The translations under genes were made by a program, and so were the position numbers. Below the pieces are notes generated by a model. It was not told the origin of the DNA. It did not search any database and worked only from the letters and a program-made list of their open reading frames with translations. DNA of 64,000 bases from NCBI RefSeq assembly GCF_000591055.1, contig NC_020388.1, positions 868,001-932,000 on the forward strand. Direction: 5' to 3'. This stretch comes from Natronomonas moolapensis 8.8.11 (GTDB taxonomy: Archaea > Halobacteriota > Halobacteria > Halobacteriales > Haloarculaceae). Numbering within the stretch: the stretch's first letter is position 1; each line of letters starts with the position of its first letter. Of this stretch, positions 7,106-20,371 are shown in pieces.

Positions 7106-7802
7106 GGTAGTGTTTAGATAAGCTGATTCCATGCGAAGGCGAACGCTTGTAACCAATTTTCGGCGGTGCTTGGTTCGACGTGGCTAAACGTATTTGAAAA
7201 TTGGTTTGTCCGTCGTTTTACTTCGCGAAAGACACGTTCGACGGCATTCCGATTCCCATGTGTGACGTGTTGGAATCGGAGCCCGTGTCGATGGCAGGCC
7301 GCGTGTAACCACGGTGCACCGTCGACGAGAAAGATCGCGTCGTCAACCTGATGTTTCTCACGCAGTTCTGAGAGAAACATCGAGGATACCGCGTTTGTTC
7401 TCGTCGGATAGAGCCGAACATGAAGCAGTCGGTTCGTGTCGGGATCGACAGCAGCGTACAGCCAATACTGCTCAGAGTTGAGCTGAATCACGGTCTCATC
7501 GACCGCAACGTGATTCGGATCGGCACCATCGGTCGGCTGTAGATCGGCCTTCTGAACCCACCGATGGACGGTGGTTCGATGGCGATCGACACCCAACCTC
7601 TCAAGAATCGAAACGGTATCCGAAAGTGATAAGCCAGCCAAATGAAGTCGGATACCGAGCTTCATCGCCGGCTCGGGTGTCGCCTCTCGCTCCAGAAAAT
7701 CTAATTCGATACAACCGCTATCGCCGCTGAGGCGGTCAAAGCTGAGCATAGAGCACTCAATCTTTTGACCGCCTCACCCTTCGACCTTATCTCAACACCG
7801 CC
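7106..7802 (-). mobile_element. IS6-family insertion sequence inside the second tnpB
   Basis: About 697 bp. The ends are imperfect inverted repeats: the left reads GGTAGTGTTTAGATAAG and the reverse complement of the right reads GGCGGTGTTGAGATAAG. Flanking direct repeats GTGCCAACC lie at 7097-7105 and 7803-7811 (8 or 9 bp; IS6 elements usually make 8). One transposase gene fills it. Both ends look intact, so the insertion may be recent. Confidence 0.85.
7114..7749 (-). CDS. IS6-family transposase
   Basis: 211 residues, full length. A helix-turn-helix-like N-terminal part (about 38-70) is followed by the DDE catalytic core: D84 in VAVDET, D143 in LVDGAP, and E171 in the NAVERVFREVKRR stretch. 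It carries out replicative cut-and-join of its own element. Very similar proteins are common in haloarchaea. The coding region starts and ends within 60 bp of the element ends. Confidence 0.9.
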   Translation of the reverse strand: MLSFDRLSGDSGCIELDFLEREATPEPAMKLGIRLHLAGLSLSDTVSILERLGVDRHRTTVHRWVQKADLQPTDGADPNHVAVDETVIQLNSEQYWLYAAVDPDTNRLLHVRLYPTRTNAVSSMFLSELREKHQVDDAIFLVDGAPWLHAACHRHGLRFQHVTHGNRNAVERVFREVKRRTNQFSNTFSHVEPSTAENWLQAFAFAWNQLI

Positions 7803-9069
7803 GTGCCAACCAGCCGGTACTCCTATCCCCACCCAAATCGGGAGCAGACTCGGAGTTACTTTGCTTCAACTCGAGACGGATGTTCTCCGCCCCATTCACG
7901 TCAGCGTTGAACACCGCGTCACACGGCTCGCAGACATACAAGCCACGTTCGACACGCTGACTCTCGTCTTCTCTACCGCAGACGCAACACGTCTTGCTCG
8001 TGTCGCGCTCTGAGACCTCTACGACTTCGACGCCCTCGACTTCGGCCTTGTATTCGAGAATCGAGGTGAAGCGGTCGAACGCCCAGCCGTGCAGGTCGAG
8101 GTTCCCGTGCCGCCCCCAGTTCTTCGCCTCGCCGTTGTCGTCTTCACGGACACCAGCGAGCTTCCCGATGTTGATACGCCCAACACCACGCTCGATACAT
8201 CGCTGGACGATGTGTTTGGATAAGGAGTGGAAGAAGTGGGTGCGGCGCTCCGACCACTTCGCGTGGAGACGGGGCGCTTCTTTACCACCCGAGTCGTCGC
8301 ACTTGGCGATTTCTTTCGGGAAGTAGTACCCGTCCTGTTTCAACCGGTTGCCGGGGTAGAGGTCAGCTTGTTCAGTGCTGTATGCGACTGCCGCGAAGTT
8401 ACAGATGCCGAGGTCGATACCCGCTGTCTCGTTTCCGGGTGCGGTGGGTGTCTCGATTTCATCCTTACAGACGAGATGCAGTTCCCAGCGCCTCTTTGCT
8501 TTGTCGTAGACGGCTCTGACCTGTTGGAGGTTCTCAACAGTGACACCGGGGCGCGTCTCGTATTCGACAAGGATGTACTCCCATGCTTTCGGGTGTTCCT
8601 TGTGATTCGAGCCTTTCGAGAGACGGACACGGTTGTTCTTCGTGTCGTGTTTGATGCCGTTTTGTTTCCACGTCACCGTGCTACGCGGGTGTTCTTCGTG
8701 GACGCGGTTGCCGTGGTCATCGTAGTAGTTTTTCTTGCGGTAGCCGGGCGGATTCGCTCGATTATCAGACTTCCTCTTTTCGTACCACGAGTTGAAGGCT
8801 TCAGCGAGTTCCTCCAGAACGCGCTGACTGGACTGCGAGTGCAATCCCTTGTACTTTGAGTGACCTTTCAACTCGTCTTTGAGGTCGCTGTGGTCTGGAA
8901 TCTCACCCGTATCATCCCATTTTTGTCGAGAGTGGTAATTAGCGACGTTCCAGAGTTTGCTGGCACTCCACCCGTGCCGGTCAAGCGGGTCCTCTACCTG
9001 TGAGTGGTTGAGGATTTTCGCCCGGTGGGTTCGATGGATTTCCAGCATTCTGAACGCCTCTATAATCAC
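7792..9069 (-). CDS. tnpB: TnpB-like protein with C-terminus replaced by an IS6 insertion
   Basis: 425 residues as read; M8 (position 9048) is an alternative start. RuvC motif I is D219 in GIDLGICN and motif III is D390 in FNADVNGAEN. A zinc finger uses C361, C364, C380 and C383. At RuvC motif II, where most TnpB have Glu in a V-E-D-L context, this reads INIGKLAGVRED, with Gly at that place and the nearest Glu (E309) seven residues on. The last three residues and the stop come from the IS6 end. About 26 native residues and the right-end hairpin lie beyond the insertion. Activity is doubtful. Confidence 0.8.
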   Translation of the reverse strand: MIIEAFRMLEIHRTHRAKILNHSQVEDPLDRHGWSASKLWNVANYHSRQKWDDTGEIPDHSDLKDELKGHSKYKGLHSQSSQRVLEELAEAFNSWYEKRKSDNRANPPGYRKKNYYDDHGNRVHEEHPRSTVTWKQNGIKHDTKNNRVRLSKGSNHKEHPKAWEYILVEYETRPGVTVENLQQVRAVYDKAKRRWELHLVCKDEIETPTAPGNETAGIDLGICNFAAVAYSTEQADLYPGNRLKQDGYYFPKEIAKCDDSGGKEAPRLHAKWSERRTHFFHSLSKHIVQRCIERGVGRINIGKLAGVREDDNGEAKNWGRHGNLDLHGWAFDRFTSILEYKAEVEGVEVVEVSERDTSKTCCVCGREDESQRVERGLYVCEPCDAVFNADVNGAENIRLELKQSNSESAPDLGGDRSTGWLARRC

Positions 9070-9214: not shown

Positions 9215-9874
9215 TCACCCCTCGACGGTTTCGGTCGCCGGCGCGTACGCCTGCAGGAACGTCTCGAGATCACGGAATTCGGCGAGGCGCTCGCCGATCG
9301 TTTCGTGGTTCCAGTGCCACCACTCGGTCGCTTCCAGGCGGGCCGCAACCTCCGGGGAAAACCGGCGGTCGATCGGTTCGGCGGGGACGCCCGCGACGAC
9401 CGTGTAGGGCTCGACGTCGTGCGTGACGACGGCGCCGGCCGCGACGACCGCCCCGTTCCCGATCGTGACGTCCGGGAGGACCGTCGCGTTGTGGCCGATC
9501 CAACTGTCGTGACCGACCTCGACGGGCTGGTCGGCACGCCACTCGAAAACGGACTCGTCGTCCTCGTCGGCCAGCTCGTACATCTCACACCGATAGGTGA
9601 AGTGGTGGGCTGTCGGTCGGTGTATCGGGTGATTGGTCGGTCCCAGCCGGGCGTGGGAGGCGACGTTCACAAACTTGCCGACGTCGGCATAATCGAGCTG
9701 GACGCGCTCCATCACATAGCTGTAATCGCTGAGCGTCGATGCGTGAATACGCGAGCCCTCGCGGACTTCGGTCCACGCGCCGAGTTCGCTCCCGGAGACG
9801 GAGACAGGGTCGTGGAGCGTCGGTTCCGGACCGAGATCGAGCGTGCGGTCCGGCCCGTATGATTCGATATACAC
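9215..9874 (-). CDS. Hexapeptide-repeat acyltransferase of phosphonate clusters (DapH/DapD/GlmU-related)
   Basis: 219 residues. A left-handed beta-helix with hexapeptide repeats spans about 30-180. The catalytic-type His-rich stretch is [16 protein letters not shown], and the usual end [17 protein letters not shown] is present. The family is typically found in C-P lyase operons and is thought to acylate a phosphonate or aminophosphonate, by analogy with PhnO, though the substrate is unproven. It follows phnE by 3 bp on the same strand, so it is the last gene of the uptake arm. Confidence 0.8.
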
Positions 9875-9877
9875 GGG

Positions 9878-10876
9878 TTATCGCTTCCCCATCGACGACT
9901 GGACGATCTTTTTCGGTGCTGTAACGAACGCTTCGAGGATGCCGGTCCGTTCGATATCGTCGTCCTCGCGGAGATACGAACGCAGCCGCTGGGAAAGCAG
10001 TTCGACGGACCCGGCCAACAGAATGACCAGGATGATACAGGCCATCATTTCCGTATAATTGAACGTTCGCCGCTGAACGTTGAGTTCGAGGCCAAGCCCG
10101 CCGGCTCCGATGAGGCCGAGACTGATAGCCACGCGGACGTTGTGTTCGAGGTCGAAGGCAAGCCAGGCGATAAACTGCCGAAACACTTGACTCAACATCC
10201 CAAAGGAAATGACCTGCGATTTGCTCGCTCCGGTGCTTCGGATCCCCTCGATGGGGCCGTCGGTGATCTCTTCGAGTTCGTCGGTGAACAGCCGGCCGAG
10301 ATAGCCGGTCGTGTCGATCATGACGGCAAGCGTCGCAGTAAAGGGACCGACACCGCCCAGCGGAATGAGAATGAGGACCCAAACGAGCGCCGGGATCGCA
10401 CGGATAACGCTCATCGTCAGCCGGAACAGGAAATTGAACGGATACGGAACGACGCGCTCGCTCGCCATGACGCCGAAAAAAAGTGCTCCCGGCAATCCGA
10501 GGGCCGTCCCCGCGATAGCGATGGCGACGGTCACCTGCGAGGCGGCGAACAACTCAGCTTCTATCATGAATTCCCAGTACTGCATCACGTCGATGAACGG
10601 AAGGAATCCGAAGTACGTCGTCGGCGGGAAGTATTCGGTCAGCGCTTCGCCGAACTCCGGGAGCTGAGCGAACAGCTCCGCCAGCGAGAATTCGACGGTC
10701 GTGAGACTCCAAGAGAAGACGACAACAAAGGCGAAAACACCGAGCGTGCCCCAGAGACGACGGAGCGTCTTCCGGTACTTGATATCCTTGAGTTTCCGGT
10801 CGACCGCCGAGTCACCGGTCGCGGCAAAGCCGAAGTACTCGCGGAGGCCATCGATCGGTGAGGGCCCGGAACTCAC
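9878..10876 (-). CDS. phnE: Phosphonate ABC transporter permease PhnE
   Basis: 332 residues from a GTG that overlaps the phnC stop by 4 nt (GTGA). Six or so membrane helices are visible. The binding-protein-dependent permease loop reads GIRSTGASKSQVISFG, near residue 230. It forms the membrane channel for phosphonate or phosphate-ester uptake with PhnC and PhnD. The longer frame continuing upstream overlaps phnC and is not coding. Confidence 0.9.
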   Translation of the reverse strand: MSSGPSPIDGLREYFGFAATGDSAVDRKLKDIKYRKTLRRLWGTLGVFAFVVVFSWSLTTVEFSLAELFAQLPEFGEALTEYFPPTTYFGFLPFIDVMQYWEFMIEAELFAASQVTVAIAIAGTALGLPGALFFGVMASERVVPYPFNFLFRLTMSVIRAIPALVWVLILIPLGGVGPFTATLAVMIDTTGYLGRLFTDELEEITDGPIEGIRSTGASKSQVISFGMLSQVFRQFIAWLAFDLEHNVRVAISLGLIGAGGLGLELNVQRRTFNYTEMMACIILVILLAGSVELLSQRLRSYLREDDDIERTGILEAFVTAPKKIVQSSMGKR

Positions 10877-11658
10877 GCCTCGACCTCCAGTTGATGTCGC
10901 TTTTCTTCCGTTTGATCGGTGTCCGTTTTTGCGAGCGCGACCGTCTCGACACTCCCGTATAGGTCGTCGACGAGCGCGGGCGTGAGTTCGTCCGGACCGA
11001 CGTCGAATATGAGTTGTCCCTCCCGGAGTCCGAGGAACCGCTCTCCGAAGTGGGCGGCGATGTTGACCTGATGAAGGCTCACTAGCGCCGTGACTTCGTG
11101 GACGGCCGCGGCCTTCTTGAGGTAGCCCATGACGCTCTCGGCGCTCGAGGGGTCGAGACTGGCGACCGGTTCGTCGGCGAGCACCAGCGACGGGTCCTGC
11201 ACCAATCCGCGGGCAATCCCGACGCGCTGTTGTTGTCCCCCACTCATCTGTGAGACGGTCTGGTGGGCCTCCTCGAGGAGACCGACCGTCTCGAGCGCCT
11301 CGAGTGCCCGTCGTTTCGTGTTCCTGTCTTGACGCTGGAGGAGGCTTTCGACCGTCGACGCGTCGGCGAGCGAGCCTGTCAACGCGTTCAGGTACGCCGA
11401 GATACCTTCGACGAGGTTGTGCTGTTGGAATATCATCCCGACCTCGGGCTGTGACCCGGCTATCGACGCCCCTTCGAGGCGTATCTCCCCGCTCGTCGGC
11501 TCCGTGAGGCCGTTGACACACCGCAACAGCGTCGATTTCCCGGCGCCGGACTCCCCGAGCAAGACGACGAATTCGTCTTCGATTTCGAACGATACGTCCT
11601 CGAGCGCGGTTACGTCACCGTACTCCTTGGTCAGATTCTCGACTGTCAGTGTACTCAT
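10873..11658 (-). CDS. phnC: Phosphonate ABC transporter ATP-binding protein PhnC
   Basis: 261 residues. Walker A is GESGAGKST (about 35-43), the signature is MSGGQQQRVGIARG (near 143), Walker B is LVLADEPVASLDP, and a switch His lies in VSLHQV. It drives phosphonate import through PhnE. The C-terminal tail after about 225 is extended and charged. It lies 27 bp downstream of phnD and overlaps phnE by 4 nt. Confidence 0.9.
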   Translation of the reverse strand: MSTLTVENLTKEYGDVTALEDVSFEIEDEFVVLLGESGAGKSTLLRCVNGLTEPTSGEIRLEGASIAGSQPEVGMIFQQHNLVEGISAYLNALTGSLADASTVESLLQRQDRNTKRRALEALETVGLLEEAHQTVSQMSGGQQQRVGIARGLVQDPSLVLADEPVASLDPSSAESVMGYLKKAAAVHEVTALVSLHQVNIAAHFGERFLGLREGQLIFDVGPDELTPALVDDLYGSVETVALAKTDTDQTEEKRHQLEVEA

Positions 11659-11685: not shown

Positions 11686-12702
11686 CTATCCGAGCTCGAT
11701 TCCGAGGTCGTTGAGCCGCTTGATGACAGGCTGGTAGTTGTCCATCGTGGTGTCGCTGAGCGTCGTGAAGGGCAAATCGGACTCATTGTAGTCATCGGGC
11801 ATATACTCCCGAATCAACTCCTCGTCGGAGTCAAGCAGCTGCTGTTCGATCTTGCCCTTCATGTCCGACTCCCAGTCTTTGCGAGCGTAGATGGGTTGTT
11901 TCGGGATCGGGAACGACCACCAGAACGGCCGCAGCGTCGCGTCTGCATTGCCACGATTCCCGATGAACGAGTCCTCCTCTCGGACCTCCTGTGGGAGTTC
12001 CTGGTCTTCTGGGAGGTAGGCCATACCGTTGCCAGTCCAGGTACAGCAGGCGTCGGCGTCGTCGTTGATGACTTTCTGGACGGCGTCCGCGTGGTTCGAC
12101 CAGACCCCATCGAAGTCGACCGGGTCACCGTCGGGGGCGTCGCCAACGTCGAGGCCGGCCTGCTTGAGAGCGTACACGGCGAATATCGACCCGCTCGTCG
12201 AGAGTCGGTCGGCGAATGCAACCCGTTTGCCTTCCAGATCCGTCCGCTCGTCGATCGACGAGTCCGGCTTTGTGAGCATCATCGAAAAATAAAACGCCGC
12301 CCCGCCCGAGACGGCCGTGCCGAACAGGTCCATCAGGTCCGGCGCGGAGATGAGCGTCACGTCGTCCATGCCGATTTCGGCCTGCCCGCTGTCCAGTGCG
12401 GGTCGGACTGCCGAGTAATCCTGCGGAACCTCGACTTCGAGGTCGAGACCGTCTATTTCGCCACGCAGCATCTCGGTGACGGGCTCGTATTGCGGACGGA
12501 CATCCGAAGGGGTATCCGGTGTCAGCAACATCGTAACAGTTTCGTCGCCCCCGGCGGCACCACCGATACAGCCCGCCGTCAGCCCGAGCGCGCCGGCACC
12601 ACTTCCAGCGATGAATTTCCGCCGCCCCATGCGGCCCACGATTCGTCCGTTGTTCGTTTCGGATGTACCCGCCGTGTCAGTGACCGTCTGGTCCGAGGTC
12701 AT
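11686..12702 (-). CDS. phnD: Phosphonate ABC transporter substrate-binding lipoprotein PhnD
   Basis: 338 residues from ATG 12702. M25 (position 12630) is a possible later start; the frame's first Met at 12792 lies upstream of the likely promoter. A twin-arginine signal (GRRKFIAGSGAG) runs into the lipobox LTAGC, so the protein should be Tat-exported and lipid-anchored outside the membrane. The body has the periplasmic-binding fold of PhnD, with AEIGMDDVTLISA and RVAFADRLSTSGS as ligand-loop regions. It is the first gene of the uptake arm, divergent from phnG. Confidence 0.9.
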   Translation of the reverse strand: MTSDQTVTDTAGTSETNNGRIVGRMGRRKFIAGSGAGALGLTAGCIGGAAGGDETVTMLLTPDTPSDVRPQYEPVTEMLRGEIDGLDLEVEVPQDYSAVRPALDSGQAEIGMDDVTLISAPDLMDLFGTAVSGGAAFYFSMMLTKPDSSIDERTDLEGKRVAFADRLSTSGSIFAVYALKQAGLDVGDAPDGDPVDFDGVWSNHADAVQKVINDDADACCTWTGNGMAYLPEDQELPQEVREEDSFIGNRGNADATLRPFWWSFPIPKQPIYARKDWESDMKGKIEQQLLDSDEELIREYMPDDYNESDLPFTTLSDTTMDNYQPVIKRLNDLGIELG

Positions 12703-12925
12703 CAGGTGTGTCGAGCAATCAGGGTCAATTAACGGTTTACCCGGTAGAGTCCGGACGCGTATCACGCCCCAATAGGCGAACCCATCACTCAATATTCGAG
12801 AGACCAGTATATATCGGTCCAGTCGTTCGATCGCGACCGACTACTCCGACCAACACCTATCGGATAGACTGTAGAGTACCTAACGAAGGCTTATCCAGCG
12901 AGTTCCAGTGGTTACAGTCGAGTAC
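12703..12925. promoter_or_regulatory. Divergent promoter region between phnD and phnG
   Basis: TATA-like strings are placed for both arms. TTAATT at 12725-12730 is about 25 nt upstream of phnD on the minus strand. GGCTTATCC at 12888-12896 is about 31 nt before the phnG ATG. A central TATATAT at 12808-12814 could serve either strand. No gene is visible here. Shared control of both arms, for example by phosphate, is plausible but no operator is identified. Confidence 0.5.
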
Positions 12926-13369
12926 ATGACAGACCCATACGACCGGTCGGATCGATTCGAGTTACTCGCCGCCTGTGACGCGGAGCGGCTCGTAGCCCAC
13001 GCCGACGCCGTCATCGACGGAGGCTCCGAGGTTCGCGTTCTGCAGTCACCGAGTCCACAGCTCGTCATGCAACAGGTGGTCGATCCGGTGGCCCGCCAGC
13101 CATTCAACCTGGGCGAGGTGCTGGTGACTGCGGCCGAGGTCGCACTCGACGAAAAAAAGGGGTTCGCGATGCGCCCGGGCAAGGCCGAGAAGCCGGCACT
13201 ATCGGCGGCAGTCGTCGACGCCGCCGTCGAGGGCGAGCACCCGCTCGCCGAGGAAATGGTCGCGTCGCTGGAGGCGGCGGCGAGCGAGCGCGAAGGGACC
13301 CGCCGCCAGCGCTGGGGCGAGACACGCCAGACGACCGTCGAGTTCGAGGAGATGGAGGACCACACGTGA
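12926..13369 (+). CDS. phnG: Phosphonate C-P lyase complex subunit PhnG
   Basis: 147 residues from ATG 12926; a GTG at 12908 is possible but less likely. LQSPSPQLVMQQVVDPV and FNLGEVLVTAAEV match the conserved middle of PhnG. The C-terminal helix QRWGETRQTTVEFEEM is also typical. PhnG is part of the PhnGHIJ core that transfers the phosphonate to ATP ribose and cleaves the C-P bond. It overlaps phnH by 4 nt. Confidence 0.9.
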   Translation: MTDPYDRSDRFELLAACDAERLVAHADAVIDGGSEVRVLQSPSPQLVMQQVVDPVARQPFNLGEVLVTAAEVALDEKKGFAMRPGKAEKPALSAAVVDAAVEGEHPLAEEMVASLEAAASEREGTRRQRWGETRQTTVEFEEMEDHT

Positions 13370-13923
13370 GAGCCCTCGATATGGATCCGGTACACGACAC
13401 GCGTGCGTGCTTCCGGGCGCTCGTCGACGCGATGAGCCGCCCCGGAACCGTCGCCACCGCGCCGACCGAACCGGCGGACCACGCGGTGTTGTCCACGCTG
13501 GTCGACCACGAGGTGACGTGTTTCACACCCGACGAGACGATTCGGACAGCCCTCGAAAACGAGGGGCGGCTCACGGCCACCGAGGCCGAGCAAGCGAGCA
13601 TCGTCCACGCGCCCACGCCCGGCGAGTGCCCCGTGAGTGATCTGACGCGGGGGAGCCTCAAAGAGCCCAGCGACGGGGCGACGGTCGTCTACTGCGTCGA
13701 CAGGCTGGAGACGTCTCCCACTGAAAACGCGGGCACGACGCTCGTCGTCTCGGGGCCCGGCGTACCGGGCCGACGACGTCTCGCCGTTGACGGTTTCAGC
13801 GCGAACGACGCGCGGGAATTGGCCGATGTCCAATCCACCTATCCGCGCGGAGTCGATGCCGTCCTGACGACGGAGCGATCCATCGCCGCGATTCCGCGCT
13901 CGGTTGCGCTGGAGGTGGCCTAA
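13366..13923 (+). CDS. phnH: Phosphonate C-P lyase complex subunit PhnH
   Basis: 185 residues from a GTG overlapping phnG. HDTRACFRALVDAMSRPGT near the N-terminus and GPGVPGRRRL in the C-terminal half are characteristic of PhnH, the dimerising structural subunit of the C-P lyase core. It ends 0 nt before the phnI ATG. Confidence 0.9.
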   Translation: MRALDMDPVHDTRACFRALVDAMSRPGTVATAPTEPADHAVLSTLVDHEVTCFTPDETIRTALENEGRLTATEAEQASIVHAPTPGECPVSDLTRGSLKEPSDGATVVYCVDRLETSPTENAGTTLVVSGPGVPGRRRLAVDGFSANDARELADVQSTYPRGVDAVLTTERSIAAIPRSVALEVA

Positions 13924-15078
13924 ATGGGGTATGTCGCCGTCGAGGCCGGCGAGGACGTCATCCGACGCGCCGAGGAACTGTTCGAGAAACAACGCGTCGC
14001 CGGCGAGAGCGAACAGGTGTCGGTCGAACAGGTCGACGAGCAGTTCTCGCGGCTCACCGCCCAGGCGATGAGCGAAGGCGGACTCTACGCCCCCCGGCTC
14101 GCAGCCATCGCGGTCAAGCAGGCTCAAGGCGACACTGCAGAGGCCGCCTTCCTGCTTCGAGCCTACCGCTCAACGCTGGAGCGGTGGGGGTCCACTACCC
14201 CGACCGAGACGGCAGACTCGTTTAGTACCCGGCGCGTCTCCCCGGCCTACAAGGACGTACCGGGCGGCCAGGTGCTTGGCGCGACAAAGGATTACACCCA
14301 GCGGTTGCTCGACTTCGAGTTAACCGATGACGACGGGATCGATCCGACCGACGACTGGGACGTCGAAGCGGAGGACCCCCCGCAACTCCGGAACGTCATG
14401 AACGTCCTACGCGAGCAGGGGCTCGTCCACGACCCGGCGGGTGACTCGGACGGGATTGAAAACGGAGGCGAGGACGGCGGTGAGAACGAATCACCCGACG
14501 AGACGGAGCCGTTCGACGCGACGCGGGACCCGGTGACCTATCCGGCCCCCCGGTCGGCCGTCCTTCAGGAACTCGCACGTGGCGAGACCGGCGCGGTGAC
14601 CGCCCTGGGGTACAGCGAACTGCGCGGCTACGGCCAGGTCCACCCGACGCTCGGCGAGGTCCGCACGGGCGAACTCCCAGTGACGATCGAGCATCCCTAC
14701 ACCGGCGACGAGGTCGAAGTGACGAGCGCCGCGGTGACCGAAACGGAGTGTGTCGTCCCCATCTACGAGAAAGCCGACGATCCGCAGTTCTCATTCGGGT
14801 ACGGGCTGGTGTTCGGTCGCAACGAGCGCAAGGCCATCGGGATGAGCATCCTCGATGCAGCCATCCAACTGGATGGCGAGGGGCCGGCACAGGACGCCGA
14901 GTTCGTCCTCGACGTCGTGGACGGCATCGACTCTTTCGGCTTCATCGAACACCTCAAGCTTCCCCACTACGTCACCTTCCAGAGTATTCTCGACCGCATC
15001 CGGTCGATACGCGAGCGAACGACCGCCGCAGCGGCCGACGAGGATCCGGTCTCACAGGAGGTGAACGCCGATGACTGA
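13924..15078 (+). CDS. phnI: Phosphonate C-P lyase complex subunit PhnI
   Basis: 384 residues. GYVAVEAGEDVIRRAEEL at the start and SEGGLYAPRLAAIAVKQAQG near residue 45 are hallmark PhnI sequences. DSFGFIEHLKLPHYVTFQ closes the fold. PhnI carries the nucleosidase-type activity that couples the phosphonate to ribose of ATP with help from PhnG, H and L. An acidic insertion at about 180-200 (DSDGIENGGEDGG and following) is probably a halophilic surface loop. It overlaps phnJ by 8 nt. Confidence 0.9.
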   Translation: MGYVAVEAGEDVIRRAEELFEKQRVAGESEQVSVEQVDEQFSRLTAQAMSEGGLYAPRLAAIAVKQAQGDTAEAAFLLRAYRSTLERWGSTTPTETADSFSTRRVSPAYKDVPGGQVLGATKDYTQRLLDFELTDDDGIDPTDDWDVEAEDPPQLRNVMNVLREQGLVHDPAGDSDGIENGGEDGGENESPDETEPFDATRDPVTYPAPRSAVLQELARGETGAVTALGYSELRGYGQVHPTLGEVRTGELPVTIEHPYTGDEVEVTSAAVTETECVVPIYEKADDPQFSFGYGLVFGRNERKAIGMSILDAAIQLDGEGPAQDAEFVLDVVDGIDSFGFIEHLKLPHYVTFQSILDRIRSIRERTTAAAADEDPVSQEVNADD

Positions 15079-16120
15079 CGAGCGGGCCGTCGGGTCGGTC
15101 TCCGACGCCGAGTCCGTCGAGGACATACTCGACGGTGTCCGAGACGAGGGGCTGGCCGGCTACAACTACGCGTATCTGGACGAACACACCAAACGCGAGG
15201 TGCGGCGTGGCGTCCTGAAGGCCATCGCGCTCCCCGGCCATCAGGTCCCGTTCGCGTCCCGGGAGATGCCGCTCGCACGGGGCTGGGGGACCGGCGGTAT
15301 CCAGACCTCGCTGTCGCTGCTTGGCCCGGAGGACACGTTCAAAGTCATCGATCAAGGCAGCGACGAAAGCGTCAACGCGGCGAACATCCGACGGCTGGCG
15401 ACCCGGACTGCGGACGTCGAGACGACGACCGACGCCACCGAGGCGTCGGTGATACAGACGCGACACCGCATTCCAGAGGAAGTGCTGGACGATGAGCAGA
15501 TCCTCGTCCTTCAGGTACCCATCACCGACCCGCTTCGACGGGTCGACGGCAGCGACGACGCCAACCGACGGCGGCACGCCCACGGCAACTACTCGAAGAT
15601 GTGGGTCGCTCTCTACGAGAACGTCGTCGAGTACGGCGAGATCAAACTCTCCTCGCGGTATCCAGTACTGGTCGACGACCGGTACCTGATGGACCCCTCG
15701 CCCATCCCGCGCTGGGACGTGTCGAAACTCGACGATGCCGACAACCTGTTTTTGTTCGCGGCCGGGCGGGAAGCGCGTATGTACGCGGTCCCGCCTCACA
15801 CCGACGTCGAGCCACTGGCGTTCGAGGACCGGCAGTTTCAGGTCGAGCGGTTCCCCGAGCAAGCCTGTGAGTACTGCGGCAGCGAGGACACGTTCCTCAC
15901 GGAGGTCGAAACCGATGACGGCAGCCGACGCTACGCCTGCAACGATACGGCGTTCTGTGAGAAACGACAGGCCGACTCCGAGTTGTCGAAAGCTCACCAC
16001 CGCGAGGGGACGGACCACGCCTGGGGACCGCCGACTGATCCGGACGTGCCATACGAGACGGACGGGGACCGTGAGGAACGCCGCCCCACGGCCGACGCGA
16101 GTGGAGGGGAAGGGAAATGA
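15071..16120 (+). CDS. phnJ: C-P lyase PhnJ (radical SAM carbon-phosphorus lyase)
   Basis: 349 residues. PhnJ breaks the C-P bond of 5-phosphoribosyl-1-phosphonate, giving the alkane and cyclic phosphate. The four essential cysteines are C266, C269, C290 and C296, spaced CX2CX20CX5C, one residue tighter than the CX2CX21CX5C of E. coli. LAGYNYAYLDEHTKREVRR near residue 30 contains the Gly-radical region. The tail after 310 is long and hydrophilic. This gene makes the cluster a true C-P lyase and not just a phosphonate importer. Confidence 0.93.
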   Translation: MTDERAVGSVSDAESVEDILDGVRDEGLAGYNYAYLDEHTKREVRRGVLKAIALPGHQVPFASREMPLARGWGTGGIQTSLSLLGPEDTFKVIDQGSDESVNAANIRRLATRTADVETTTDATEASVIQTRHRIPEEVLDDEQILVLQVPITDPLRRVDGSDDANRRRHAHGNYSKMWVALYENVVEYGEIKLSSRYPVLVDDRYLMDPSPIPRWDVSKLDDADNLFLFAAGREARMYAVPPHTDVEPLAFEDRQFQVERFPEQACEYCGSEDTFLTEVETDDGSRRYACNDTAFCEKRQADSELSKAHHREGTDHAWGPPTDPDVPYETDGDREERRPTADASGGEGK

Positions 16121-16938
16121 CGGTTCTCTCGGTCTCGAATATCGGCAAAATCTACGGCCAGCCCTGCGGCGACTGCGTCGAGCATACCGGCCCTGCGGTG
16201 GGCGACAACCAGTGTCCCGTCTGTGACAGCGTCGTCGCCTGTGCGGACGTGGACTTCGAGTTACACGACGGCGAAGTCTTGGGAATCGTCGGTGAGTCCG
16301 GCAGCGGCAAGTCCAGCCTGGCGGAGATGCTGGCGCTCGATTTGGACGCAACGGCTGGCGACGTCCGATACGACGCCTACGGCGGGAACCTGCTTTCGGC
16401 GGACTACCGGGCACGACATGAACTACGGAACGAACACATCGGGATGGTCCACCAGCACGTCCAAGACGGGCTGGAACTGTCTTTTTCAGGCGGTGGCAAC
16501 GTCGCCGAGAAGCTACTGGCGGCCGGCTGGCGACACTACGGCGACATTCGTGAGCGCGTCGAGTCCCTGTTTCGCGAGACGGAGGTACCGGTCTCCCGGA
16601 TGGACGACGCGACGGAGACCTACAGCGGCGGGATGCAACGGCGTGTCCAGATCGCGAAGGCCATCGCCAACGACCCGGGACTGGTCGTGCTCGACGAGCC
16701 AACGACGGGGCTGGACGTGAGCGTCCAGGCTCGCGTCCTCGATATGTTCCGTCGGCTCCAGCGCGAGCAGAATGTGGCGACTGTCGTCGTTTCACACGAT
16801 CTGGACGTGATTCGGCTGCTTGCAGACCGGACGCTGGTGATGCGACACGGCCGCGTCATCGAGACGGGGCTGACGGACCGCATCATGGAGGACCCACACC
16901 ACGAGTACACGCAGACACTCATCAACTCAGTGCTATGA
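16117..16938 (+). CDS. phnK: C-P lyase complex ABC-type ATPase PhnK
   Basis: 273 residues. Walker A is GESGSGKSS, the signature is YSGGMQRRVQIAKA, Walker B is LVVLDEPTTGLDVS. Between the first strand and Walker A it carries two CxxC pairs (CGDC and CPVC), a known PhnK feature. PhnK docks on the PhnGHIJ core and hydrolyses ATP during turnover. It overlaps phnJ and phnL by 4 nt each. Confidence 0.92.
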   Translation: MTVLSVSNIGKIYGQPCGDCVEHTGPAVGDNQCPVCDSVVACADVDFELHDGEVLGIVGESGSGKSSLAEMLALDLDATAGDVRYDAYGGNLLSADYRARHELRNEHIGMVHQHVQDGLELSFSGGGNVAEKLLAAGWRHYGDIRERVESLFRETEVPVSRMDDATETYSGGMQRRVQIAKAIANDPGLVVLDEPTTGLDVSVQARVLDMFRRLQREQNVATVVVSHDLDVIRLLADRTLVMRHGRVIETGLTDRIMEDPHHEYTQTLINSVL

Positions 16939-17666
16939 TTCTGGATATCGACGCCGTCTCGAAGACGTTCGAAATGCACGTTCTCGACGGGAAGACCGTC
17001 CCGGGCCTGGCGGACGTAAGTTTCTCCGTGGACGAAGGCGAGTTCGTGGCCATCGTCGGCGAATCCGGCAGCGGCAAGTCGTCGCTACTGAAGTGCATCC
17101 ACCGGACCTACGAACCGACGAACGGTACGGTCCGGTTCCGAACCGAGGACGGTGAGATCGACCTCGCGAGCTGTCCGGATCGCGACGTGTTGGCGGTTCG
17201 GGGCAGCGAGTTGGGCTACGCCTCGCAGTTTCTCGACGAGATTCCGAGGGTGCCCGCGGTCGACGTGGTAGCCCGGCCGATGTGGGAACAAGGAACGGAC
17301 CGCGAGGCCGCCCGCGAGCGGGCCCGGGAGCTGTTGACCGCGTTGTCCCTGCCTGCGGACCTGTTCAACGCCTACCCGGCGACGTTCAGCGGCGGCGAGC
17401 GCCAGCGCGTCAACTTCGCGCGAGCCATCGGCCCGCAGCCGCGGCTCCTGTTGCTCGATGAACCGACAAGTGCCCTCGACCCCGAAACGCGGGCCAGCGC
17501 GCTCGAACTGCTCGACAGCTACCTGCCGACATCGACCACGATGATCGGCGTATTCCACAACTACGAGGTGGTTCGGCGGATCGCCGATCGCGTGGTCGTC
17601 CTTGCTGATGCGGAACTTCAGCGCGTCGTCGACGTCGCTGACTACAACCCGGAGGTACTCGCATGA
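16935..17666 (+). CDS. phnL: C-P lyase complex ABC-type ATPase PhnL
   Basis: 243 residues. The ATPase motifs are GESGSGKSSLLKC, FSGGERQRVNFARA and LLLLDEPTSALDP. The start LDIDAVSKTFEMHVLDGK is typical PhnL. It binds with PhnK to the C-P lyase core. It is more compact than PhnK and has no Cys insertion. It overlaps phnM by 4 nt. Confidence 0.92.
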   Translation: MILDIDAVSKTFEMHVLDGKTVPGLADVSFSVDEGEFVAIVGESGSGKSSLLKCIHRTYEPTNGTVRFRTEDGEIDLASCPDRDVLAVRGSELGYASQFLDEIPRVPAVDVVARPMWEQGTDREAARERARELLTALSLPADLFNAYPATFSGGERQRVNFARAIGPQPRLLLLDEPTSALDPETRASALELLDSYLPTSTTMIGVFHNYEVVRRIADRVVVLADAELQRVVDVADYNPEVLA

Positions 17667-18823
17667 CGACGAACCAGCAACTCGCACAGTCGTACTGTCT
17701 GACGAACGCCCGAATCGTGACTCCGGAGACCGTCCTACAGGGGAGCGTTCGAATCGAGGGGGACCGCATCGCCGCGGTCGGGCCCGACGTCGACCCGACG
17801 CGGGGAGACGACATCGTCGACGCGGACGGACAGTACCTGTTGCCCGGTCTCATAGACCTCCACGGCGACGATATCGAGGGGCAACTCCAGCCCCGAAACG
17901 GGGCCCGCATGGACACCGCGATGGCGCTTGGGGCCGCGGACCGTTCGAACGTCGCCGCCGGCATCACGACAAAATACCACGCCATCGCGTTCGAGAACGA
18001 CCCGGAGGAAGGGCGAACGACCGAGCTCGCAGCCGAGCTGACCGAGGCCATCGAGGCCGCCGACTCGTGGATGGCCGATCACCGTATCCACGTTCGGTGT
18101 GAGGTCACACAAGAGGAGGCCGTCACGGCGGCGATCCGTGACATTCAACGCGACGCTGTCGATCTCGTCTCGGTAATGTCTCACATCCCCGGCAAGGGGC
18201 AGTTCGAGGACATAGCGGCGTTCAAGAAGTATTACGAGACGTCGGATCGGCATACAGTCGCGGAGGCCGAGCGGTTTATCGAGGAGCGAACCAGCATCTC
18301 GATGGTGGAGATCCGCGACCGCATCGACCGGGTCGTCAAAGCTGCCCGCGACGCCGGCGTCGTCACGGCGTCGCACGACGACGAGGACCCACAGGAGGTC
18401 GAACGGCTCAGCGAACGCGGCGTCGACATCGCCGAGTACCCCATCACGCTCGAGACGGCGAAGCGCGCGAACGAACTCGGCATGACAACCGTCATGGGTG
18501 CTCCCAATCTCGTCCGCGGAGAGAGCCAGTGGGGGAATCTCACGTCCATCGATGCTGCCGACGCTGGCGTCCTCGATGTTCTCTGTGTCGATTATCATCC
18601 CCCGTCGCTGCTGGCCGCGCCGTTCGTCGACACCGGCGAACCGCTTCCAAAGCGGGTCGCACGCGTGACGAAGAACCCGGCCGACGCGGTGGGGCTACAG
18701 GACAGAGGGCGTATCGCCGAGGGCGCGCGTGCCGATCTCGTGGTGGTGGACACCGAAGAGACGCCGACGGTGTCGCGCGCGTTCGTCGCGGGCCGAGGCG
18801 TATACAAAGCGGAGGGCAGCTGA
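17663..18823 (+). CDS. phnM: Alpha-D-ribose 1-methylphosphonate 5-triphosphate diphosphatase PhnM
   Basis: 386 residues, an amidohydrolase-fold metal enzyme. It removes pyrophosphate from the 5-triphosphate made by PhnGHIL, before PhnJ acts. LPGLIDLHGDDIEG supplies the metal-site His and Asp residues, VVTASHDDEDPQEV the second metal region, and YHPPSLLAAPF the C-terminal strand. It is full length and ends by sharing one base with the start of the next gene (TGATG). Confidence 0.92.
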   Translation: MTTNQQLAQSYCLTNARIVTPETVLQGSVRIEGDRIAAVGPDVDPTRGDDIVDADGQYLLPGLIDLHGDDIEGQLQPRNGARMDTAMALGAADRSNVAAGITTKYHAIAFENDPEEGRTTELAAELTEAIEAADSWMADHRIHVRCEVTQEEAVTAAIRDIQRDAVDLVSVMSHIPGKGQFEDIAAFKKYYETSDRHTVAEAERFIEERTSISMVEIRDRIDRVVKAARDAGVVTASHDDEDPQEVERLSERGVDIAEYPITLETAKRANELGMTTVMGAPNLVRGESQWGNLTSIDAADAGVLDVLCVDYHPPSLLAAPFVDTGEPLPKRVARVTKNPADAVGLQDRGRIAEGARADLVVVDTEETPTVSRAFVAGRGVYKAEGS

Positions 18824-19614
18824 TGCGCCTCGGGGCCAATATGGACGTGCGGTTCGGCGCGACCGTCGAGGAGTTCGTCGAGTATCTCGTCGAGCTCGGT
18901 CTCGAACACGTCGAACTCACCACCGAGTACCTGCAGGCACATCCGGACGCGCCCGACCCCGAAACGGTCGGCGAAATCACGTCGGTGCACGACGTAAGCG
19001 TCACCTATCACGCGCCGTTCCGGGACTGGAATCTCGGGAGTTTCAACGACGACTCGGCGCAGGCCGGCGTTATGCAGGTCAAGCAGACGCTCGATGCCGC
19101 CGCAACCGCCGGGGCCGGTGCCGTCGTCGTCCACGGCGGCTCCGTCCCGCGGCGCTACCCGGACTGGGTTCGCGAGACGGGCCGCCGGAACGCCGTCGAG
19201 TCGCTGCGTGCGTGTGCCGAACACGCCGCCGAGGTGGGCGTCCAGCTCTGTTTGGAGAACCAGCCGTTCGACAGTCGTGATGAACGACACACGGTCGGCC
19301 CGGACGCGCTCGCGGAAACGCTCGATGCCGTCGACGTCGACCCGGACGCGCTGGGAATTACACTCGACGTGGGCCACGCCTCGGTCAACGATACCGACTG
19401 GCGTGAGTACGTCGAGCGGTTCGGCGACCGGATCACCGTCTGTCATCTCCACGACAACGACGGGGAAAGCGACGCACACGAGCCGCTGCCCGAGTATGAA
19501 CCCATCGTTGACGCTGTCGACGCACCGTACAACGTCTTCGAGATGAAGACCGTGGCCGACGTCGCGGCGTGTCTCGAAACCCAACCGGATCACATACCCC
19601 AAGCGCAGCCATGA
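18823..19614 (+). CDS. Xylose-isomerase-like TIM-barrel protein (sugar phosphate isomerase/epimerase family)
   Basis: 263 residues from ATG 18823, overlapping the phnM stop by one base. The longer upstream frame lies inside phnM. Motifs are LEHVELTTEYLQ, VTYHAPFRDWNLG, AVVVHGGSVPRRYPDW, CLENQPFDSRDE, LGITLDVGHAS and ITVCHLHDNDG, which place metal-binding Glu, Asp and His residues of the AP-endonuclease-2 fold. The position directly after phnM and before a HAD phosphatase suggests a role in handling the ribose phosphate released by C-P lyase, but the reaction is not known. Confidence 0.8.
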   Translation: MRLGANMDVRFGATVEEFVEYLVELGLEHVELTTEYLQAHPDAPDPETVGEITSVHDVSVTYHAPFRDWNLGSFNDDSAQAGVMQVKQTLDAAATAGAGAVVVHGGSVPRRYPDWVRETGRRNAVESLRACAEHAAEVGVQLCLENQPFDSRDERHTVGPDALAETLDAVDVDPDALGITLDVGHASVNDTDWREYVERFGDRITVCHLHDNDGESDAHEPLPEYEPIVDAVDAPYNVFEMKTVADVAACLETQPDHIPQAQP

Positions 19615-20264
19615 ACTACGACGCAGTCGTCCTCGATATGGACGGTGTCGTCATCGAGCCCACCGACAGAGCCGTGATTCGGGAGTCGATCACCGACACG
19701 TTCGGTGAGTTCGGCGTCGACTCACCGTCGCCGGCGCTTGTCGAGCGGTTGCTCGACCAGGAGGTGCCCACCGAAACGCTGAGAGAGCGACACGGGATCG
19801 ATCCGGCCGAGTTCTGGACGCAACGGGAACACGGTGCCTCGCAGGCGCAGATCGAGGCGGCCGACCGCGGCGCGAAGGCGCCGTACGACGACGTCTCCGT
19901 TCTCGATGAACTCCCGACGCCACTCGGATTGGTGAGCAACAACCAGCGGCCGACGGTCGAGTTCCTCCTCGAGCACCACGGCCTCACGTACTTCGAGACG
20001 GCGTACGGCCGGGAACCGACGCTGACCGGAGCCGCTCGGAAAAAACCCGACCCCCACTACATCGAGCGGGCGCTGGCGGATCTCGACGCCGATACTGCAC
20101 TGTACGTCGGCGATTCGAACGTCGACGTCGAAGCGGCACACCGTGCCGAGGTCGACTCGGCGTTTGTCCGGCGGCCACACCGGACGGACTACGCGCTCGA
20201 GCGTGAGCCGACGTACGAGCTGTCGACGCTGGCCGGGCTGACCGGGATACTCGGCTCTTCTTGA
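19611..20264 (+). CDS. HAD-superfamily hydrolase (phosphatase) of the phn operon
   Basis: 217 residues from ATG 19611, overlapping the previous stop by 4 nt. An earlier Met at 19569 is unlikely. HAD motif I is VVLDMDGVV (D9 and D11), motif II is LVSNNQRP, motif III is the Lys in ARKKPDPHY, and motif IV is LYVGDSNVDVEAA. The small cap domain is of the phosphoglycolate-phosphatase type. It is probably a sugar phosphate phosphatase. As last gene of the nine-gene plus-strand operon it may dephosphorylate a product of phosphonate breakdown. Confidence 0.82.
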   Translation: MNYDAVVLDMDGVVIEPTDRAVIRESITDTFGEFGVDSPSPALVERLLDQEVPTETLRERHGIDPAEFWTQREHGASQAQIEAADRGAKAPYDDVSVLDELPTPLGLVSNNQRPTVEFLLEHHGLTYFETAYGREPTLTGAARKKPDPHYIERALADLDADTALYVGDSNVDVEAAHRAEVDSAFVRRPHRTDYALEREPTYELSTLAGLTGILGSS

Positions 20265-20315: not shown

Positions 20316-20360
20316 AACAGAACAGAACAGAACAGAACAGAACAGAACAGAACAGAACAG
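20316..20360 (+). repeat. Pentanucleotide microsatellite (AACAG)9
   Basis: Nine perfect tandem copies of AACAG follow the end of the phn operon, in a stretch (20265-20500) where I see no confident gene. A 5-bp unit shifts frame with each copy, but no reading frame that would profit from this is supported. Confidence 0.9.
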
Positions 20361-20371
20361 AACACGATGCG

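Follow-up and report, generated by a model that had tools for sequence, protein, structure and literature searches.

The subject of this study is the downstream end of the carbon-phosphorus (C-P) lyase operon of the haloarchaeon Natronomonas moolapensis 8.8.11, which lies in a 64,000-nucleotide stretch of the genome (contig NC_020388.1, positions 868,001 to 932,000; hereafter the window). There the gene directly following phnM encodes a triosephosphate isomerase (TIM) barrel protein that is probably a replacement for PhnP, and the gene after that encodes a phosphatase of the haloacid dehalogenase (HAD) superfamily. The TIM-barrel protein would act as a metal-dependent phosphodiesterase of the endonuclease IV/CbiR type, opening the PhnJ product 5-phospho-alpha-D-ribosyl 1,2-cyclic phosphate to ribose 1,5-bisphosphate (R15P), and would thereby take the role of PhnP, an unrelated metallo-beta-lactamase (MBL). 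Where the HAD protein is present, it would remove the C1 phosphate of R15P, yielding inorganic phosphate and ribose 5-phosphate and leaving the kinase PhnN unneeded. We infer the substrate, the bond cut, the product and the HAD step from sequence and gene context. The proposal as a whole is held with moderate confidence, most of which belongs to the TIM-barrel part; if that part is right, the odds that the HAD protein is an R15P phosphatase are about even.

The run from phnG to phnM (12908-18823, plus strand) passes without a gap into the TIM-barrel gene (18823..19614, plus strand) and then into the HAD gene (19611..20264, plus strand). The TGA stop codon of phnM occupies 18821-18823 and the ATG of the TIM-barrel gene begins at 18823, an overlap of 1 nt; the TIM-barrel gene ends at 19614 and the HAD gene starts with the ATG at 19611, an overlap of 4 nt, and ends at 20264. 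Both overlaps had been given in a preliminary description of this DNA, and the coordinates of the open reading frames (ORFs) together with Pfam matches bear them out. The same description had reported that PhnP and PhnN are missing from the window, and a whole-genome search for the two genes, named beforehand as a possible refutation, found neither over its curated cut-off: the best match to the PhnP model (TIGR03307) scored 48.9 bits against a cut-off of 272.25, and the best match to the PhnN model (TIGR02322) scored 24.3 bits against 156. The contig is a single sequence of 2,912,573 bases, with an estimated completeness of 99.98%. In a control set of 14 genomes, one genome, presumably that of E. 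coli, passed each of the two cut-offs. A survey of 391 Halobacteria genomes identified phnJ in 38 and none in the remaining 353, and neither PhnP nor PhnN exceeded its curated cut-off in any of the 38 phnJ-bearing genomes. Likewise, a search of these 38 genomes at E 0.01 gave no match to TIGR03223, which we take to represent the 2H phosphodiesterase of some bacterial phn operons without phnP, an enzyme whose fold is unrelated to the TIM barrel. An excerpt of a published review notes this 2H enzyme (RcsF), found in bacterial phn operons that lack phnP, as an alternative to PhnP, and lists N. moolapensis among the archaea that have phnGHIJKLM but not phnNOP (PMC10574752). In a Thiothrix operon examined for comparison, the slot after phnM is taken by phnN and phnP, with phnP directly after phnM-phnN; the TIM-barrel protein would share with PhnP its proposed reaction and its position in the pathway, while differing from it in fold and family (PF01261 rather than MBL).

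The TIM-barrel gene accompanies phnJ throughout the haloarchaea surveyed. All 38 phnJ-bearing genomes contain a relative of at least 54% identity, with partial matches in two (G313 and G345), and at a threshold of at least 45% identity relatives were found in 38 of 38 genomes with phnJ compared to 22 of 353 without it, the latter at 45-56% identity. By coordinates, 36 of the 38 genomes have the gene on the strand of phnJ, 2.3-4.2 kb beyond it. One exception (G299) has an operon split over contigs, one of which carries phnL-phnM-TIM-HAD; the other (G313, L108:1865-15520) has a decayed operon with a truncated phnJ and a TIM-barrel fragment 10 kb further on, and matches to phnK, phnL and phnM were absent from the stretch of this genome that was retrieved. 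In a second set of 34 named loci, overlapping the 38 genomes, phnM immediately precedes the TIM-barrel gene in 32, the exceptions being one solo copy (L151) and one fragment (L153). Relatives of the gene were not found in viral contigs, and those found on plasmids belong to haloarchaeal phn loci, one Vescimonas cobalamin operon and a few other settings. The phn locus is plasmid-borne in many relatives. By TIM-barrel protein, the nearest named relatives are Halorientalis pallida (84% identity) and Natronomonas sp. LN261 (80%). A Fisher comparison of phn-type copies with the presence of phnJ was left unused as circular, the grouping having been set by phn linkage itself.

The copies that occur outside phn operons number 23, 22 of them in genomes without phnJ and one a second copy in a phnJ-bearing genome (G379), and no phn genes were found in their retrieved flanks. 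In a tree from which three outgroup rows (L162, L169 and L172) were omitted, these solo copies form a single clade (support 99/86) placed beside or inside the phn-type copies, and we interpret this clade as the result of a single move out of the phn operon into another role. Its members (L013:4396-9768 and L080-L101) often adjoin a transporter of the energy-coupling factor (ECF) type, consisting of a two-domain ATP-binding cassette (ABC) protein, a CbiQ-like protein and an unknown membrane protein; one annotated case additionally includes a 2-phosphosulfolactate phosphatase-like gene. Possibly these loci import some phosphodiester compound and trim it. Because the association with this transporter implies that the family can take other substrates, the phn-linked protein might act upstream of the main route or on by-products of C-P lyase, for example cyclic or linear phosphodiesters that were formed wrongly. 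The TIM-barrel gene is as constant as phnM, however, which is hard to square with a side role, and none of the other enzymes searched for the cyclic phosphate (PhnP, TIGR03223 and the MBL discussed below) tracks phnJ; we therefore regard action off the main route as highly improbable.

By sequence, the TIM-barrel protein (PF01261, AP_endonuc_2, 112 bits) is closest among the NCBIfam models to CbiR, a phosphodiesterase of cobamide remodeling (NF041277, 56.2 bits against a cut-off of 105), followed by endonuclease IV (NF002198, 39 bits against 244) and then by epimerases (psicose 3-epimerase, 33 bits against 300), all of these matches being under their cut-offs. A published report places CbiR in the AP endonuclease 2 superfamily and notes that it has conserved residues of metal-ligand type (PMC7733943). 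Nine putative ligands, H63, H104, E145, D182, H185, H208, D217, H219 and E240, do not vary among the 39 distinct phn-type copies (reduced from 43, with the short fragments L108, L109 and L110 omitted from the alignment) or among the 23 solo copies. In profile alignments, all nine positions align in a homolog of CbiR whose gene lies in a cobalamin operon. H63 and H104 have no counterpart there in the epimerase YcjR; UlaE is missing five of the nine positions, and the isomerase Hyi keeps H63 and lacks five others, H104 among them. The same two histidines are missing when tagatose 3-epimerase (8xix) is aligned. Haloarchaeal records annotate the gene as an epimerase, and the preliminary description had called its product epimerase-like, which is probably wrong, as the protein carries the metal-ligand set of the phosphodiesterases of its superfamily. 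Three further residues, W69, S73 and E35, separate the two groups: all 39 phn-type copies have them and none of the 23 solo copies does. They are nearly invariant in a wider set that includes one solo row, and they may read the substrate. Relative to CbiR, then, the phn-linked protein shares the superfamily, the nine ligand positions and the best NCBIfam match, but it falls under the CbiR cut-off, sits in phn rather than cobalamin operons and would have a different substrate. With endonuclease IV it shares the superfamily, six of nine ligand positions being in register, while differing in its score under the cut-off and in the lack of any DNA-repair context.

Several observations on the protein itself weigh against assigning it to the cyclic phosphate. 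E. coli endonuclease IV (Nfo), for which the ligand residue numbers used were presumed, is in register at only six of the nine positions in an automatic alignment, the other three being offset. Haloarchaeal paralogs of 31-35% identity keep eight of the ligand positions in 20 of 20 cases (the ninth in 1 of 20), so that the ligand set marks a broad phosphodiesterase-like group rather than this substrate; it was for this reason rejected as a unique mark of the phn-type proteins. The predicted structure is confident (mean predicted local distance difference test score, pLDDT, 93.5) and has the xylose isomerase-like TIM-barrel fold common to the whole superfamily. Its closest solved structure is MJ1311 (PDB 3wqo; 25% identity, Z 27.9, root-mean-square deviation 2.6, 244 residues aligned), an uncharacterized protein titled as D-tagatose 3-epimerase-like, which, read by eye, has eight of the nine ligands within the region that aligns. 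Since isomerases, including xylose isomerases, epimerases and endonuclease IV all follow at Z of approximately 22-24, the fold does not decide the function, and fold comparison failed to discriminate between a phosphodiesterase and an epimerase.

The many epimerases and isomerases among these fold neighbors are compatible with a different division of labor, in which a housekeeping PhnP-like MBL opens the cyclic phosphate and the TIM-barrel protein is a later sugar-phosphate isomerase or epimerase, acting for example on R15P or ribose 5-phosphate, as annotated. This genome does encode a PhnP-like MBL with a cysteine-rich N-terminus at position 2778100 of the contig (48.9 bits, cut-off 272), and matches to TIGR03307 at E 1e-8 occur in 375 of 391 haloarchaea (0 of 391 over the cut-off), including 34 of the 38 phnJ-bearing genomes. 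Because the protein is present here and in those 34 genomes, it could carry out the PhnP step, and to that extent it counts against the TIM-barrel protein as the phosphodiesterase. Against this, the MBL does not track phnJ (34 of 38 genomes with phnJ compared to, by subtraction, 341 of 353 without), it lies outside the phn operon, and four phnJ-bearing genomes (G082, G101, G109 and G267) have no MBL match at E 1e-8. In addition, the TIM-barrel protein keeps both H63 and H104, which are missing in the epimerases compared (the isomerase Hyi has H63 only), and 19 of the 38 phnJ-bearing genomes already possess an R15P isomerase as well. HVO_2763 of H. volcanii, an MBL that has been discussed in relation to PhnP and is a possible ortholog, is reported not to have acted on any of the MBL substrates with which it was assayed, phosphodiester compounds included; cyclic ribose phosphate was not among these substrates (PMC3296008). 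These points weaken the MBL alternative, which we consider unlikely.

The HAD gene does not show the same constancy. It adjoins the TIM-barrel gene in 18 of the 38 phnJ-bearing genomes, in one of which it is frame-split (G267) and in another of which an internal stop interrupts it close to the end of a contig (G048), and relatives at E 1e-10 were found in 60 of 60 genomes searched. Since the gene is adjacent in fewer than half of the genomes, is broken in a few and has paralogs everywhere it was sought, the TIM-barrel gene alone is constant and the HAD gene is accessory. The preliminary description had asked whether the two genes track phnJ as a pair, and had named their occurrence mostly without phn genes as a refutation; tracking holds for the TIM-barrel gene, whose copies away from phn fall in one clade, and fails for the HAD gene. 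In all 22 phn-linked copies the HAD protein (HAD-IA type; HAD_2, PF13419, 61 bits) retains the catalytic-type residues D9, D11, S109, K145, D168 and D172, whose assignment to the individual HAD motifs we presume. No sequence in the PDB matched it at E 1e-8, and inspection of the neighborhoods of solo HAD genes revealed no consistent partner. A HAD tree, from which partial proteins (L047/L121, L073/L113/L135 and L124) were omitted, implies that the switch between phn-linked and solo settings occurred at least twice, which would reflect either more than one recruitment or one recruitment followed by relocation.

The absence of other outlets for R15P bears on the role of the HAD protein in N. moolapensis. 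Neither R15P isomerase (best E 4e-44) nor nucleoside monophosphate (NMP) phosphorylase (27 bits against 535) is over its cut-off in this genome, and because both are lacking, a phosphatase taking the C1 phosphate off R15P would be a sensible exit. A haloarchaeal ribulose 1,5-bisphosphate (RuBP) phosphatase, Halxa_2271, is likewise a HAD protein acting on a pentose bisphosphate, but it is reported to act on RuBP and to need R15P isomerase upstream (PMC9700705). R15P isomerase, scored in the phnJ-bearing genomes from best E-values, is over its cut-off in 258 of 391 haloarchaea and 19 of those 38 genomes, and was rejected as a general sink given this frequency and its result here. NMP phosphorylase was rejected as a sink as well, being over its cut-off in 6 of 38 genomes only, all without an adjacent HAD gene (Fisher p 0.02, uncorrected for relatedness). 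In genomes lacking the HAD gene, R15P might pass to R15P isomerase or to another phosphatase. Several counts speak against the pathway in this form. The HAD gene is missing from 20 of the 38 phnJ-bearing genomes; R15P isomerase is over its cut-off in 7 of the 18 genomes with the HAD gene compared to 12 of the 20 without it, a difference that is not significant (Fisher p 0.33); and 8 of the 38, including three of one genus (G014, G313 and G316), have neither an adjacent HAD gene nor an R15P isomerase over the cut-off, which the proposal leaves unexplained.

The 20 genomes without the HAD gene, and the eight without either enzyme, also fit a scheme in which the TIM-barrel protein alone cuts both ester bonds, releasing ribose 5-phosphate and phosphate, and the HAD protein has some other, dispensable role such as clearing side products. 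Hydrolysis of both ester bonds is known from the Eggerthella cyclic phosphate dihydrolase. Endonuclease IV, by comparison, is not known to cut more than one bond. CbiR, too, is described as stopping at one (PMC7733943). HADs of one subfamily occupy the same slot at no fewer than two positions in the tree, which suggests a role in the pathway, and we consider cleavage of both bonds by the TIM-barrel protein rather improbable, more so than the MBL alternative.

An independent case favoring the link between the TIM-barrel protein and phn genes comes from outside the class Halobacteria. A phylum-wide profile search of 216 genomes identified a distant homolog (29% identity) in an archaeal genome (G462), where phnM comes after a truncated phnL-like stretch and overlaps the TIM-barrel gene by 4 nt (L198:3703-5857). 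The PhnM is over its curated cut-off (394 bits against 390.55), the TIM-barrel protein keeps all nine ligand positions, and the cluster is preceded by genes for a PstS-like protein and a metallophosphoesterase. This apparent relic of a phnL-phnM-TIM cluster supports the association. A Thermus thermophilus plasmid (L203:4696-14045) carries a phnDEGHIJKLM-type locus in which phnN and phnP are not annotated within the stretch shown, and approximately 3.1 kb past phnM lies a TIM-barrel gene whose product is closely related to TTHB071, an uncharacterized protein of known structure (PDB 3ayt), and aligns at eight of the nine ligand positions. The intervening genes encode an ABC ATPase, a binding protein and a TIGR00282 metallophosphoesterase; both the last of these and the TTHB071-like protein are candidates for the cyclic phosphate step, and the case is only suggestive. 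On a Pseudosulfitobacter plasmid (L205:3474-5777), genes for a glycerophosphodiesterase, a HAD protein and a nine-ligand TIM-barrel protein stand in a row with an adjoining ABC transporter, which is a further context of phosphodiester type in which this group occurs. We can offer only tentatively, and with more doubt than confidence, the generalization that endonuclease IV-type TIM barrels are general non-homologous replacements for PhnP (after phnM in haloarchaea, in at least one other archaeal class and perhaps in Thermus), with HADs or other phosphatases ending the C-P lyase pathway in ribose 5-phosphate and phosphate rather than phosphoribosyl pyrophosphate (PRPP).

The remainder of the locus was annotated from an ORF listing that covers positions 1-26000 of the window. 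Pfam and NCBIfam matches place the complete C-P lyase core together on the plus strand: phnG (12908..13369, PF06754), phnH (13366..13923, PF05845, with TIGR03292 over its cut-off), phnI (13924..15078, PF05861), phnJ, the C-P lyase radical S-adenosylmethionine (SAM) subunit (15071..16120, PF06007, 440 bits), phnK (16117..16938, best NCBIfam match TIGR02323, 228 bits, under its cut-off), phnL (16935..17666, best NCBIfam match TIGR02324, 237 bits, under its cut-off) and phnM (17663..18823, NF011990, 451 bits, over its cut-off; TIGR02318, 369 bits, slightly under its cut-off). Divergent from these, on the minus strand, are ORFs for a phnD-like substrate-binding protein (11686..12792, start codon unfixed) and a phnC-like ABC ATPase (10873..11658), whose positions match those of annotated PhnD/SsuA-type proteins and a phosphonate ABC ATPase, respectively, in relatives. 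Also on the minus strand is a hexapeptide transferase of a phn-associated family (9215..9874; TIGR03308, 293 bits, over its cut-off). Farther to the left of the phn region, at 7114-9069 and 1212-2447, are ORFs that by eye resemble transposase and TnpB-type genes, and a run of the 5-base repeat AGAAC occupies 20316-20364, directly 3' of the HAD gene.

A literature search limited to open papers found no published claim for the phn-linked TIM-barrel gene. If the assignment is correct, the protein would close a gap, already remarked on in the literature, in the late C-P lyase steps of phosphonate-degrading haloarchaea, and the annotation of its haloarchaeal records as epimerases would be corrected. 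For the cyclic intermediate, it would add a third type of enzyme to PhnP and the 2H phosphodiesterases. With one conserved gene named as the missing phosphodiesterase, this gap in the pathway becomes testable.

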